This document shows, piece after piece, positions 20,086 through 35,946 of a stretch of DNA of 42,888 nucleotides. Each line of letters begins with the position of its first letter. The stretch's first letter is position 1. The stretch lies in the IMG/VR virus record IMGVR_UViG_3300042400_000575, positions 1-42,888 of that record, one strand, 5' to 3'. The notes under the pieces were generated by a model. The model did no database searches. It had not been told where the DNA came from and saw nothing but the letters and a program-made list of their open reading frames with translations. Both the position numbers and the translations under genes were made by a program. The stretch is from a virus.

Positions 20086-20349
20086 ATGAGTACACAAAAT
20101 GATTTACTAGGGCAAGCACTTAAGCCTATGATTACAGAGATAATTGGTGAGCATATAAATGCTTTAGGGATAGAAGAAAAGATAAACGAAGCTATAGGTG
20201 GAATTGCTCAAAATACCACTAAATTACTATCAGTGTCTTATAACGGAAGCGAACCCGTTGATGTTGGGGTAGTGCATAAGCAATTTGAGTTGATTACTAA
20301 GATTGTAGCTAGTGGAGCTAATTTAATGCTTAGTGGACAAGCTGGGAAT
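20086..20349 (+). CDS. MoxR-like AAA+ ATPase, exon 1 (up to the Walker A motif)
   Basis: 88 codons from the ATG at 20086 (AGGAGATGATAAA upstream). It reads MSTQNDLLGQALKPMITEII, an acidic helical region, then ANLMLSGQAGN. It breaks off inside the P-loop: without splicing, three further codons lead to a stop at 20361. The exon ends GGGAAT, which pairs with GTTCCC downstream to form the intron P1 helix with the obligatory U-G pair at the splice site. Joined to exon 2 it gives a 374-aa ATPase with G84-Q-A-G-N-S-K-S91 as Walker A. The family remodels or loads protein complexes; in phages it is usually paired with the gene that follows exon 2. Confidence 0.88.
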
Positions 20350-20600
20350 GAACTTTACTAGTTCCCTTTCAGAGTAATCTGTCAAAATAAATTCCTCTAA
20401 TTGCTGGAACGTCCTTAGAGTCTATATAACTACAACGTGATTAGAAATGATGAGCGTGAATGTTTGAAAATATATAGAATTGGAAAATCAGCAGGTAAGC
20501 ACCGTATGGGTGAAACTTCAACGACTAGTCGAAAGACGTAGGGCTAAGTAGTCCGAAATGGGGAACTCCGTTTTATGAAATTGTAGCTTGTCCAGTTATA

Positions 20601-20609
20601 TGGTATAAT
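20601..20609 (+). promoter_or_regulatory. Extended -10 (TGGTATAAT) for the intron endonuclease
   Basis: TGGTATAAT 28 bases before the ATG at 20637; a TTGTAG lies 17 bases further up as a possible -35. In longer, read-through RNA, TGTCC just upstream (20590-20594) can pair with GGACA over the ribosome site (20628-20632), helped by TGGTA/TACCA between them. An RNA starting at this promoter lacks the TGTCC strand, so its ribosome site would be free. Confidence 0.55.
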
Positions 20610-20636
20610 ACATTTACCAAAACTAAAGGACATACA

Positions 20637-21272
20637 ATGGAAGTTTTTATTGATGTAGAAAATTATGAAGGATTATACGCTGTAAGTAATTATGGCAATG
20701 TATTATCTTATGCAAAGAATGATGGCAATGGCAATAGAGATAGACTGCTTAAGTTGGGAGTTAGTTCTAAAAAATCTGGTGAGCATACAACCTATAGAAA
20801 CGTAACTTTTTCTAAGGATGGAATAGTAAAAAGATTTCAAGTACACCAATTGGTAGCAAAAGCTTTTATTGCTAACCCACTTAATAAACCTCATGTCAAT
20901 CACATTGATAATGATGGCTCCAACAATCACGTATCTAATTTAGAGTGGACTACCCCTAAAGAGAATATGCAACATTCATCTGTTCAAGGTAGACAAGATA
21001 AGAGTAGAAAGATGGGTGGAGATAAGCTTGGCAAGATAAAATCATTCAAAGCAAAAGTAAAACTTCATAATTTAATTGGACAACAATCTGGAAATACTAA
21101 AATAATCAGCATATTAGAATTTGGCAAACATCCAAAGGGTGAGTGTAAATGTTTGAGATGTGGAGCTGTTTTTAGAAATGATTTGACTAGCTTTATTGGT
21201 GGTGCTAAATCATCTTGCAGAAGTTGTGCAATAAAATTACATTGGAAAAAGAAAAAATGGATGAAGATATAG
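20637..21272 (+). CDS. Intron-encoded HNH homing endonuclease
   Basis: 211 aa. NUMOD4 motif at the N terminus (ENYEGLYAVSNYGNVLSY), then an HNH_3 domain: QVHQLVAKAFI...NKPHVNHIDNDGSNNHVSNLEWTTPKENMQHS at about residues 65-120, with catalytic His in VNHIDND and the Asn of SNLEW. The C-terminal third has a Cys4 ribbon (CKCLRC...SSCRSC) and a basic tail, probably for DNA recognition. The ATG at 20637 follows AAAGGACATACA. It would cut the intronless allele of the ATPase gene and so spread the intron. The stop codon is within the intron S element, so the gene end is constrained by the ribozyme. Confidence 0.9.
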   Translation: MEVFIDVENYEGLYAVSNYGNVLSYAKNDGNGNRDRLLKLGVSSKKSGEHTTYRNVTFSKDGIVKRFQVHQLVAKAFIANPLNKPHVNHIDNDGSNNHVSNLEWTTPKENMQHSSVQGRQDKSRKMGGDKLGKIKSFKAKVKLHNLIGQQSGNTKIISILEFGKHPKGECKCLRCGAVFRNDLTSFIGGAKSSCRSCAIKLHWKKKKWMKI

Positions 21273-21346
21273 TCTGGACTGCATAGAGATATGCAGTTGA
21301 GTTAAAAGCTCAGACTGTCAAGTAACGATTGACAGTTGAACAATCG

Positions 21347-22207
21347 AGTAAGTCACATACATTACAGCAAGTAGCTAAAGGGTTAGGAATTCCATTCCAT
21401 AGTCAATCTGTATCTATGCAAACAACCAAAACAGACTTGATTGGCTTTGTAGATGCTAATGGGGTATATAGATATAACGGCTTTATTCATGCTTTCAGAG
21501 ATGGCGGATTATTCAACCTTGATGAAATTGATGCTGGTAATCCTAATGTATTGGTAGTTCTTAATTCAGCAATTAGTAATGGATTTATAGAAACTCCTGA
21601 TGGCAATATGCTAACAAAGCATGATAATTTCCGTATGGCTTGTACAGCTAATACAGTTGGAACAGGGGCTAATACTAAGTATGTAGGGCGTAATAAGTTA
21701 GATGCTGCAACATTAGATAGATTTGCATTAGTACACTTTGAGCTAGATGAAGAGCTAGAGGAGAAGCTATGTGGAGATAAAGCACTAGCAAGTGGATTCA
21801 GAGCCATGAGAGCTGTTGCAGATGCTAAGTTTGAAGATATTATGATAACTATGCGTTCTTGTATTGGTACTGCTAAGCTTATGAAAGCTGGGATAGATGT
21901 TTATGAGGCATTGAAGATTCACTGTTTCAAGGGTATTGATGAGGATGCTAGAAACGCACTACTTAAACAATTCAAAGCTAACTATAAAACATCATCATTT
22001 ACAGCAGATAAAGCGTTCACTACTACAGCCCCTAAGATTGAGCATAGTGGCAAAGAATGTGTAATTTGTGGCAAAGGTCATATGATTGAGAAGGAAGGCA
22101 AGTACGGTAAGTTTATGGGATGTACCAACTTTCCTGAATGTATCCATACTGAGAAGGTTGTTGTGGCTAATACTACAGTAGATAGTGACCCATTTGATTT
22201 AGACTAG
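21347..22207 (+). CDS. MoxR-like AAA+ ATPase, exon 2
   Basis: 287 codons including stop. Starts SKSHTLQQVAKGLG, completing Walker A. Walker B is GGLFNLDEID (near residue 146 of the spliced protein); the sensor 1 region is FRMACTANT, then LDAATLDRFALVHFELD as in MoxR/BchI-type ATPases with an arginine-containing RF motif. The C terminus adds a topoisomerase-type Cys4 ribbon (CVICGKGHM...GCTNFPEC), a nucleic-acid or protein contact. In-frame starts near 21329 lie in the intron and are not real. The next gene, with a GEPE motif, is its usual phage partner type. Confidence 0.88.
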   Translation, partial: SKSHTLQQVAKGLGIPFHSQSVSMQTTKTDLIGFVDANGVYRYNGFIHAFRDGGLFNLDEIDAGNPNVLVVLNSAISNGFIETPDGNMLTKHDNFRMACTANTVGTGANTKYVGRNKLDAATLDRFALVHFELDEELEEKLCGDKALASGFRAMRAVADAKFEDIMITMRSCIGTAKLMKAGIDVYEALKIHCFKGIDEDARNALLKQFKANYKTSSFTADKAFTTTAPKIEHSGKECVICGKGHMIEKEGKYGKFMGCTNFPECIHTEKVVVANTTVDSDPFDLD

Positions 22208-27201: not shown

Positions 27202-27210
27202 TGGTATAAT
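27202..27210 (+). promoter_or_regulatory. Extended -10 (TGGTATAAT) for the HNH gene at 27299
   Basis: TGGTATAAT ten bases after the previous stop; the RNA would start near 27216 and include the whole pseudoknot-capable leader. Confidence 0.55.
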
Positions 27211-27231
27211 GTCCTATGTAGAAAGTTTATC

Positions 27232-27296
27232 TGAGAGGTTGTCTACAGCCTCCTCAGCTTCAACCTCTCATATAAATTTATAAGTCTGAGGAGGCT
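27232..27296 (+). promoter_or_regulatory. Pseudoknot-capable leader that masks the ribosome binding site
   Basis: Stem 1: TGAGAGGTTG (27232-27241) with CAACCTCTCA (27261-27270), 10 bp perfect. The loop of stem 1 holds AGCCTCCTCAG (27247-27257), the exact complement of CTGAGGAGGCT (27286-27296), which contains the AGGAGG ribosome site of the ATG at 27299. Order S1a-S2a-S1b-S2b is that of an H-type pseudoknot, with loops of 5, 3 and 15 bases. Either way the ribosome site can be closed. Confidence 0.8.
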
Positions 27297-27298
27297 TT

Positions 27299-27979
27299 AT
27301 GTTAGAAAAATCACAAGTACCAGTTCCATTGTTATTAGAAGATATAGGAATGTATTATCCAACTGCTAATGCTGTAAAAAAGCGAAGATATGGAATTTAT
27401 AAATGCTATTGTGGAAAAGAGTTTAGAGCAATGGCTCAAAGTATTAAGAGCGGAAATACAATAAGTTGTGGATGCTATCACATAGAGCAAGCGTCACAAC
27501 AGCTTACAAGTCATGGAATGTCTGGAACTAGATTATATAAGATATACAGAGGGATGAAGGATAGGGTATTGAATATAAAATGTTCTGCATTTGAACATTA
27601 CGGTGGAAGAGGAATAAAAATATGTTCTGAATGGGAAGGTGAGTTTGTTAAATTTTATGATTGGGCTATCGCTAATGGATATGATGACGACTTGACTATA
27701 GATAGAATAAATAATGATGGCAATTATGAGCCTTCAAATTGCAGATGGGTAAGCATGACTGTTCAAAATAGAAATACAAGCCTATTGTATTCACATAATA
27801 CAAGTGGCTATAGAGGAGTGTGTTTTGATAAAAGACGCTGTAGATATATATCATCAATAGGTATTGGTGGTAAGAGAATTAGACTTGGAATGTTTGATAC
27901 AGCTATTGATGCTGCTAAAAAATATGATTCTTATGTTCTTGAGAATAATCTTGAACATACAATTAATGGAGTAATATGA
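27299..27979 (+). CDS. Free-standing HNH endonuclease with AP2 domain
   Basis: 226 aa. N-terminal Cys-rich motif (YKCYCGKEF...TISCGC), linker SHGMSGTRLYKIYRGMKDR, then the HNH-type core YGGRGIKICSEW...LTIDRINNDGNYEPSNCRWVSM at about residues 100-155, and a C-terminal AP2 DNA-binding domain (NTSGYRGVCFDKRR...LGMFDTAIDAAKKYD). This is the common phage homing endonuclease layout. Not inside an intron: the flanking genes are complete. Its end overlaps the start of the primase gene (ATGATG). Own promoter and a masked ribosome site suggest tightly limited expression. Confidence 0.88.
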   Translation: MLEKSQVPVPLLLEDIGMYYPTANAVKKRRYGIYKCYCGKEFRAMAQSIKSGNTISCGCYHIEQASQQLTSHGMSGTRLYKIYRGMKDRVLNIKCSAFEHYGGRGIKICSEWEGEFVKFYDWAIANGYDDDLTIDRINNDGNYEPSNCRWVSMTVQNRNTSLLYSHNTSGYRGVCFDKRRCRYISSIGIGGKRIRLGMFDTAIDAAKKYDSYVLENNLEHTINGVI

Positions 27980-30096
27980 TGTTAGATAAGATGGTTTCGG
28001 TTTTAGCTGGCAAAGATGCCAATAGCGATTTAGCCCACTATATGAGGGTACTTAGTTTATTCGGCGTGGCTGTTATAGCAAATAATGTTCGCAGCAAGGT
28101 TCAGTGTCCTACAGACTTTAGTACAGTACCAGCTAATGTGTATGGTATTGCTATTGCAGGAAGTGGATTAAGCAAGAGTAGAAGCTTACGATACATAGAA
28201 GAGTTATTCATTAAAGATGCTCTAATTGAAATCAAAGCTATTGCTGAACAGAAGATGGAAGATATTGACCCATTTGATATGGAAGGTATTGCCAAGCTTA
28301 TCAAGGAAGGGGTAACTATTAGTCCTATCTATAAGAGTGCTACAGACAGTGCTATTAGTGCTATACGCTCCATGATGGATACTATGGATATTTATTCAGT
28401 AAACATTGCATTAGATGAAATGGGTTCAGTATTAGCTAAAGAGTACGATATGTTAAGTGATACATTGCTTAATGCATTCGATCATGGAGTTATCAAACCT
28501 AACCTAAGACGTACTACGGGAGTCAAGGGAGCTACTAAACCAGTTCCTCATAATATGATGATGTTTGGAAGTCCTACATTAATCTTTGAAGGTAAAGCAG
28601 AGACAGAAAAGCTATTCTTTGATTTACTAGGTGCTGGTATGGCTAGACGTAACTTATTTGCTATGGTTACAAGCCATGTAAATCACTATACTCTTGTTAA
28701 CGAAGGTGCTACAGCGATAGCTATCAATGAGATTAGTGCTTGTATGACTTACATTGCAACCAACTATCATAATAGAGTCTTGGAGCTTGATGATGAAGCT
28801 AAGAGGCTTTATATTGAGTCAGAGATTAAAGGCAAAGAAGACAGCGAGCTAGTATCTAAATATAAACCACTAAACATGGTATATACTCAGAATAAGCATT
28901 GGTTGGCATTGAAGATTAGTGCATTGATTGCAATGATGGATATGAAACAGCAAGTAGAAGCTAAACACTTTAATGAAGCTATGGCTATTGTTGAAGAGAG
29001 TTTTGAAAGCTTGAAGCTAATTAATTCAAGACCTGAGAAGTATGAACTTATTGTTGATTGGTTGTGTGAAAGCAATGGTGAAGAGAGTGAATATACATTA
29101 ACACAAGAATTACCATTCTATGCAGATATTAAATCCAAGAAAGCCTTTTGGGAATTAGCTAAAGGTTATGCTTATCAGAACAATATTACTTTACAGATTG
29201 AAGACAGGCAGAACATTACGTTTTATCAAGCTAGAGGAAAGACTGCAACAGACTTAACTGAACCATTGATATTCAGTTATTCAGCAGATATGACAACTGG
29301 ATATACACCTAATGAAATTGGTACTTGGACTGATATGCATAAGGTTACTCAGTCAGATGGGTTGTGTTATTCAGCACATAGATTCAAGAATGGGTATAGA
29401 AATAAAGATAATGTAATTACATCATTTTCATTGCTTATGCTTGACGTTGATGGTGGAACCACATTGGATATGGCTAAAATCATTTTGAGCGACTATACAT
29501 ACCTTATTTCAACTACTAGGAACCATCAGAAAGAAAAGAATGGTATTGTCTGTGATAGATTCAGAATTATCATGCCTATGGAATATACGCTTGACTTGAC
29601 AGTGGAGCAATATAGTAACTTTATGAAGAATATCATGGAGGATTTGCCTATTGAGCTAGATAGACAATGCACTGATGCTAGTAGATTCTTTTATGGAGCT
29701 AGTGGTGAGTATTGGTATAACGAAGGGATACTGATTAACTGTGATAAGTACGTATCAAACACTGGCGAGAGTGAAACTTATAGAAAAGCTGGGTCTAATC
29801 TATCCAAGAAGAATATTGGTGGTATCAGTCAGTATATCATTCGTAATCAACATGGAGGAAGAAACAGTGCATTGATTAAGTTAGCCCTATTGCTTATGGA
29901 TACAGGCTATACACATGATGAAGCCAAAGATGAAATACTCAGGGTCAACAAGCAGTTCGACAATCCTCTTACTACTAGAGAGCTTGAAAAGACTATATTT
30001 AAAACCATAGAAAGGAAAGAAGAAAAAGAAGTCGATGACTATTCAGATGATGAATATGTCGAAGAAGGCGATCCTTTTGCTGAGACATATGATTAA
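27976..30096 (+). CDS. Primase/ATPase fusion (DUF3987-like plus primase-like)
   Basis: 706 aa. The N-terminal half is a P-loop ATPase of the DUF3987/helicase type with a deviant Walker A (A61-G-S-G-L-S-K-S68) and IALDEMGS as the likely Walker B. The C-terminal half resembles archaeo-eukaryotic-type primases: LMLDVDGG (about 485-493) with the catalytic D-x-D, STTRNHQ, DRFRIIMPM, then DRQCTDASRFFYG (about 574-586), followed by a basic helical region and an acidic tail. It would prime and unwind DNA at the phage fork. No DNA polymerase is encoded in the window, so it presumably works with the host replisome. GGAG before the ATG pair at 27976. Confidence 0.75.
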   Translation: MMLDKMVSVLAGKDANSDLAHYMRVLSLFGVAVIANNVRSKVQCPTDFSTVPANVYGIAIAGSGLSKSRSLRYIEELFIKDALIEIKAIAEQKMEDIDPFDMEGIAKLIKEGVTISPIYKSATDSAISAIRSMMDTMDIYSVNIALDEMGSVLAKEYDMLSDTLLNAFDHGVIKPNLRRTTGVKGATKPVPHNMMMFGSPTLIFEGKAETEKLFFDLLGAGMARRNLFAMVTSHVNHYTLVNEGATAIAINEISACMTYIATNYHNRVLELDDEAKRLYIESEIKGKEDSELVSKYKPLNMVYTQNKHWLALKISALIAMMDMKQQVEAKHFNEAMAIVEESFESLKLINSRPEKYELIVDWLCESNGEESEYTLTQELPFYADIKSKKAFWELAKGYAYQNNITLQIEDRQNITFYQARGKTATDLTEPLIFSYSADMTTGYTPNEIGTWTDMHKVTQSDGLCYSAHRFKNGYRNKDNVITSFSLLMLDVDGGTTLDMAKIILSDYTYLISTTRNHQKEKNGIVCDRFRIIMPMEYTLDLTVEQYSNFMKNIMEDLPIELDRQCTDASRFFYGASGEYWYNEGILINCDKYVSNTGESETYRKAGSNLSKKNIGGISQYIIRNQHGGRNSALIKLALLLMDTGYTHDEAKDEILRVNKQFDNPLTTRELEKTIFKTIERKEEKEVDDYSDDEYVEEGDPFAETYD

Positions 30097-35911: not shown

Positions 35912-35914
35912 TTA

Positions 35915-35946
35915 ATAACATAAGTGGTATAATGCACTTATGTTAT
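35915..35946 (+). promoter_or_regulatory. Promoter framed by a 12-bp perfect inverted repeat
   Basis: TGGTATAAT extended -10 at 35925-35933, about 30 bases before the HNH start at 35964. ATAACATAAGTG (35915-35926) and CACTTATGTTAT (35935-35946) are perfect complements around an eight-base loop that contains the TATAAT. As DNA it could be an operator; in read-through RNA it is a strong hairpin. Confidence 0.6.

Follow-up and report, generated by a model that had tools for sequence, protein, structure and literature searches.

The ribosome binding site (RBS) of T4-type homing endonuclease genes (I-TevI, I-TevII, I-TevIII, segB and Aeh1 mobE) is held in an RNA hairpin (PMC2988022, PMC3014915). 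This hairpin arises in read-through RNA, and a late promoter makes transcripts that avoid it; among the free-standing endonuclease genes of T4, several have no promoter (PMC2988022). The locus described here lies in a window of 42,888 nucleotides (the whole stretch of DNA that was analysed, which is a virus record) and has a similar design, with the RBS of a putative phage homing endonuclease gene predicted to be paired in a stable helix. In contrast to the simple hairpin of T4, its leader features two interlocked helices (S1 and S2) and a third one (P3); its promoter is found upstream of the entire lock, so that the promoter RNA, as judged from its predicted start, keeps the 5′ arm that is missing from the T4 promoter RNA; and the leader is conserved across unrelated phages. 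Another potentially harmful gene, the type I toxin gene timP (timPR), likewise has an mRNA with exclusive leader folds, a sequestered RBS and a pseudoknot (PMC11228461). Its pseudoknot is the active form, however, and its control involves an antisense RNA, whereas the interlocked form of the present leader is predicted to be inactive and no antisense RNA was seen. The leader of T4/T2 gene 32 is another phage mRNA with a pseudoknot in translational control, but that pseudoknot is positioned 67 nt upstream of the start, serves as gp32 nucleation site and does not lock the RBS directly (PMC3014915). Rfam covariance models gave no match at gathering score and their permissive search only sub-threshold ones; a hammerhead-like match (19.9 bits for a cut-off of 75) was dismissed as chance. 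The leader thus appears to be an uncatalogued (absent from Rfam) relative of the RBS-sequestering leaders known from phage homing endonucleases.

A sequence-only reading had described S1 and S2 as perfect helices. Their four strands are found at 27232-27241 with 27261-27270 (S1) and 27247-27257 with 27286-27296 (S2), each unique in the window, and the loop lengths of 5, 3 and 15 nt agree with that description, as do the 4 bases between AGGAGG (27289-27294) and the ATG (27299-27301). The S1 stem of 10 bp is present as described and proved too short: pairing continues beyond one mismatch and reaches 19 bp, leaving a linker of only 6 nt between S1 and the 3′ strand of S2. The small helix P3 had been overlooked. 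The features of the locus are listed in Table 1. Where the leader RNA is expected to begin (27216-27221), an AUG is immediately followed by a stop codon; the same is seen in four related leaders (L032, L209, L218, L228) and not in three others (L031, L231, L121).

Table 1. Features of the leader, the HNH endonuclease gene and the adjacent host gene in the window.
Feature	Position	Strand	Remarks
Extended -10 promoter TGGTATAAT	27202-27210	+	-10 box itself at 27205-27210
Predicted transcript start	~27216-27218	+	few bases ahead of S1
S1a, 5′ arm of 19-bp hairpin	27223-27241	+	one mismatch in the window; covariation
S2a, putative anti-Shine-Dalgarno strand within the S1 loop	27247-27257	+	8-bp core paired 72/72
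S1b, 3′ arm of S1	27261-27279	+	
P3 5′ arm AAGTC	27282-27286	+	44/45 cells paired
S2b, partner of S2a	27286-27296	+	covers Shine-Dalgarno AGGAGG; incompatible with P3
P3 3′ arm GGCTT	27293-27297	+	P3 loop TGAGGA exposes the Shine-Dalgarno in part
HNH endonuclease, 226 aa	27299-27979	+	N-terminal Cys pairs, C-terminal AP2-like DNA-binding domain
Primase-like host gene (PriCT_1/DUF3987) beside the insertion	27976-30096	+	start overlaps HNH stop

The downstream gene had been read as an HNH endonuclease, an assignment borne out by a match to PHROG 374 (“HNH endonuclease”, E 1e-61). The protein also has an AP2 match (PF00847, E 2.6e-7) slightly under the Pfam cut-off. In two insert-free relatives (L028 and L029) the primase gene is uninterrupted while the HNH gene and the leader are both absent; the boundary of the insertion was set by visual inspection, as the MAFFT alignment of the empty site misplaced the upstream gene. 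The 3′ end of the HNH gene (27960-27981, GGAGTAATATGATG) is similar to the RBS and start of the primase gene in L028 (GGAGTAGAATTATGAT), and the insertion therefore seems to have retained the initiation signal of its neighbour. Elsewhere in the window, a two-part group I intron signature (20344-21296; RF00028, E 2.6e-8 and 1.9e-5, under the gathering score) surrounds an HNH ORF (20637-21272). An ATPase gene (20086-20361 and 21329-22207) is apparently split by this candidate intron close to the Walker A motif.

A search with the S2 arms identified near-identical copies (L009, L010, L020) and the same leader in other phages, to which L209, L218 and L121 were added through protein searches. A pattern restricted to S1b and the linker, with S2 omitted, retrieved the known leaders, L228, L231 and one chance match within a coding region that has no S2 (L232). 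S2 is complete in both L228 and L231, and each has an HNH gene at the expected position. The leaders occupy seven insertion contexts in otherwise unrelated phages and their HNH proteins are 37-47% identical. The cassette precedes the primase gene in the window and a tape-measure gene, at a common insertion site, in L031 and L228; in the L032 group it has small ORFs on one side and an F-like head gene on the other, and it is placed downstream of an F-like head gene in L209, next to tail genes in L218 and L121, and downstream of a NinG-like gene in L231 (neighbour gene names are a reading of the translations, backed only in part by searches). Among named phages the window leader had no DNA match and the L121 leader a single weak partial one; the leader is absent from the HNH relatives found in such phages (e.g., Polaribacter, Pectobacterium, Vibrio, Staphylococcus), and a plasmid search with the leader DNA gave zero matches. 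An initial pattern made of the RBS only had 20 matches, none of which had S2a outside HNH loci, and these were considered chance RBS matches. From a scan of ~160 HNH loci, L153, L155, L092, L116 and others are not claimed: several of their scores were equalled by shuffles, and with so many loci tested some strong scores are to be expected. In place of the leader fold, the 48% relative L120 shows a simple hairpin that encloses GGGGA, together with an upstream ATG.

The 97 nt preceding the start codon are 75-86% identical among leaders, compared to 48-60% for the ORFs (DNA) and 24-41% for the next 100 nt upstream (L121 and the near-identical L032/L033 pair were left out of this comparison). This drop indicates that the conserved unit begins at the promoter. 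The L121 leader has drifted in sequence (38-43% identity) with its fold unchanged, and a model built without it locates it correctly (29.1 bits, E 0.001 over 80 loci). Covariation was assessed in a small set of nine distinct leaders aligned by hand, S2 included. S1 is paired in 159 out of 166 alignment cells, with changes on both sides at 7 of its 19 pairs. The 8-bp core of S2 is paired in all 72 cells and has compensatory changes at seven of its eight positions; L209 carries one mismatch close to the end of S2. Four types of S2 are found (CTCCTCAG/CTGAGGAG, CCTCCAAG/CTTGGAGG, CCTTCACG/CGTGAAGG and CCCCCGTC/GACGGGGG), which form 8/8 pairs with their own partner and a mean of 5.0/8 across types, a baseline that is expected because S2b, as a ribosome site, is always purine-rich. 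Although their insertion site is the same, L031 and L228 differ in S2, each having a matched pair of its own. In a smaller automatic alignment S1+S2 had a covariation score of 0.193 versus 0.111 for shuffled data (0/500), and slid controls paired 37-52% of cells versus 95% for the actual S1+S2. The sequence-only reading had stated that complementarity not conserved among relatives would count against it; on the contrary, S1 and S2 are both kept by compensatory change in the nine leaders. The comparison thus shows that they are conserved as pairings and that the leader travels with HNH genes. The preservation of the fold by matching mutations in several unrelated phages is the reason to regard it as a real RNA element.

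Interlocked helices as strong as these beside a start codon are also difficult to obtain by chance. The window element scores 66.5, the best of 4000 dinucleotide shuffles reaching 49 (0/4000), and the same test gave 0/4000 in six leaders. When the whole window was examined on both strands (1316 tiles), this element alone reached the cut-off. A second interlocked element of the same topology was found in L227 (640-770; record of L209, 26430-26540), with an S1 of 17 bp and a perfect S2 of 13 bp (0/1000 shuffles). It is preceded by a TGGTATAAT promoter and is not located at an HNH ribosome site.

In most members, nested folding gives S1 and the small hairpin P3: AAGTC(TGAGGA)GGCTT in the window, AAGTC(TTGGAG)GACTT in L218, AAGTC(GTGAAG)GACTT in L228 and AAGAC(GGGG)GTCTT in L121. 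Only one of its pairs covaries (U-G / U-A / A-U), and P3 together with S1b accounts for the invariance of TTTATAAGTC. The hairpin energy of P3 is -3.8 to -5.3 kcal/mol in all members, and its loop holds the Shine-Dalgarno sequence in part. In general, hairpins as weak as P3 hardly impede initiation; S2, whose stacking sum is -16 to -25 kcal/mol versus about -4 for P3, would. The full S1 and the full S2 do not fit together, as a 6-nt linker cannot span 19 bp, and a few outer A-U pairs of S1 must therefore open in the interlocked form. The two helices of this putative H-type pseudoknot, both of which covary, can coexist only under that condition. The idea of two exclusive states, one of the options given by the sequence-only reading, is retained with different partners: P3 excludes S2, while S1, apart from its outer A-U pairs, fits either. 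With an assumed pseudoknot penalty, S1+P3 and the interlocked form are within ~2 kcal/mol of each other in five of the six leaders computed, and the window favours the locked form (estimated at -31.6 versus -22.3 for S1+P3); all these values are indicative only.

The leader is quite probably the complete 5′ UTR of a portable homing endonuclease cassette, made of promoter, ~80-nt leader and HNH-AP2 gene, in which S2 would lock the RBS and the P3 state would free it. Masking of the RBS by S2, which covers AGGAGG and whose 8-bp core is maintained by compensation, agrees with the earlier proposal, and repression by this helix is a well-supported prediction from the comparison of leaders. S1 would fold first during transcription and display S2a in its loop. 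On emerging, the RBS would either enter the weak P3, whose loop would contain the Shine-Dalgarno, or pair with S2a. The latter pairing would generate an interlocked fold of the pseudoknot type, in which S2 coexists with an S1 that has lost a few outer A-U pairs, and would block 30S binding. The choice would thus be between S1+P3, with a nearly free RBS, and trimmed S1+S2, with a locked one. Translation would be low by default at any landing site, the level of expression being set by the frequency of RBS escape into P3. We infer from these data that the outcome is repression, that the P3 state is the open one, that S1 folds first and that expression is low and leaky without a dedicated sensor. 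The requirement for a trigger suggested by the sequence-only reading does not follow from the data, since a permanent dampener fits the data equally well and no conserved unpaired pocket points to a small-molecule sensor.

A true switch with a specific trigger is a possible, if rather doubtful, alternative to this dampener. The long S1 stem would be cleaved by an RNase, or a protein such as the HNH-AP2 enzyme would bind, so that S2a is removed or held and translation is turned on or off. Such a role is consistent with an S1 that is maintained at 14-19 bp and covaries even at outer pairs that S2 does not require, with the almost invariant loop-proximal GGUUG/CAACC of S1, and with the expectation that only P3 would remain without S2a; type I toxin mRNAs offer precedents of processing-activated or two-state leaders (PMC11228461). 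The lack of a conserved unpaired pocket and the nature of AP2, a DNA-binding fold, argue in the opposite direction.

The position of the promoter bears on how the putative lock is delivered. The motif TGNTATAAT is found in L031, L032, L033 and L218, and TATAAT without TG in L209, L228 and L121; a recognisable -10 is absent in L231, and in all other leaders the -10 box is about a dozen bases ahead of S1. In most copies, as the comparison shows, the promoter precedes the entire element. L032, L121 and L218 have the cassette in antisense orientation relative to a neighbour, so these copies need a promoter of their own. Since the -10 box of the window precedes S1a and S2a, the RNA made from the cassette's own promoter, with its predicted start, carries the whole lock, as the sequence-only reading had claimed; its contrast with the T4 promoter bypass also stands, no promoter-like site having been found in the scan of 27211-27298. 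It is improbable that timing is of the T4 style, with a second promoter within the leader (the conserved TTTATAAG ahead of the RBS) yielding a short RNA that avoids the lock. This mechanism is used by T4 I-TevI, segB and Aeh1 mobE (PMC2988022) and TTTATAAG is invariant in 8/9 leaders, but its conservation is accounted for by S1b (TTT) and P3 (AAGTC), L121 has CATAAG, and a transcript starting 7 nt downstream would cut into the Shine-Dalgarno, all in addition to the empty scan.

It is very unlikely that the element acts as DNA, its inverted repeats being bound by the enzyme as an operator, a cruciform or a mimic of the homing site, even if I-TevI is autorepressed through an operator that covers its promoter (PMC2988022) and a palindrome surrounds the -10 of another HNH gene of the window. 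Three pairings around one Shine-Dalgarno, compensated in transcript register, are unexpected for a DNA site, and the S2 arms vary freely in sequence yet stay paired. The palindrome itself (35914-35945, TAACATAAGTG-GTATAATG-CACTTATGTTA) is centred on a -10 box, in an operator-like layout, upstream of an HNH-AP2 ORF listed from 35940, of which a later ATG (35964) has a ribosome site. Least credible is a pseudoknot-type small-molecule riboswitch such as preQ1 or SAM-II, which share the H-type layout with the RBS in the second helix, because the leader has no Rfam match at gathering score and its best permissive matches are far under their cut-offs, its helices are much longer, its joining strands are short or engaged in P3 with no conserved pocket, and it belongs to a selfish, mobile gene without metabolic link.

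The leader is a compact RNA backed by covariation and not present in Rfam. It may represent a portable RNA switch of a new class, a suggestion that is tentative and somewhat short of probable, in which the S1/S2/P3 leader and its own promoter move with homing endonucleases between unrelated phages and toggle the ribosome site between loop-exposed and locked, with cleavage or the binding of a protein as possible triggers. Expression of selfish nucleases must suffice for their spread without harming the resident genome. The T4 examples depend on the promoter timing of the host phage, whereas this cassette appears to bring both promoter and brake. Together these would allow it to land anywhere, even antisense to neighbouring genes, with its expression preset.
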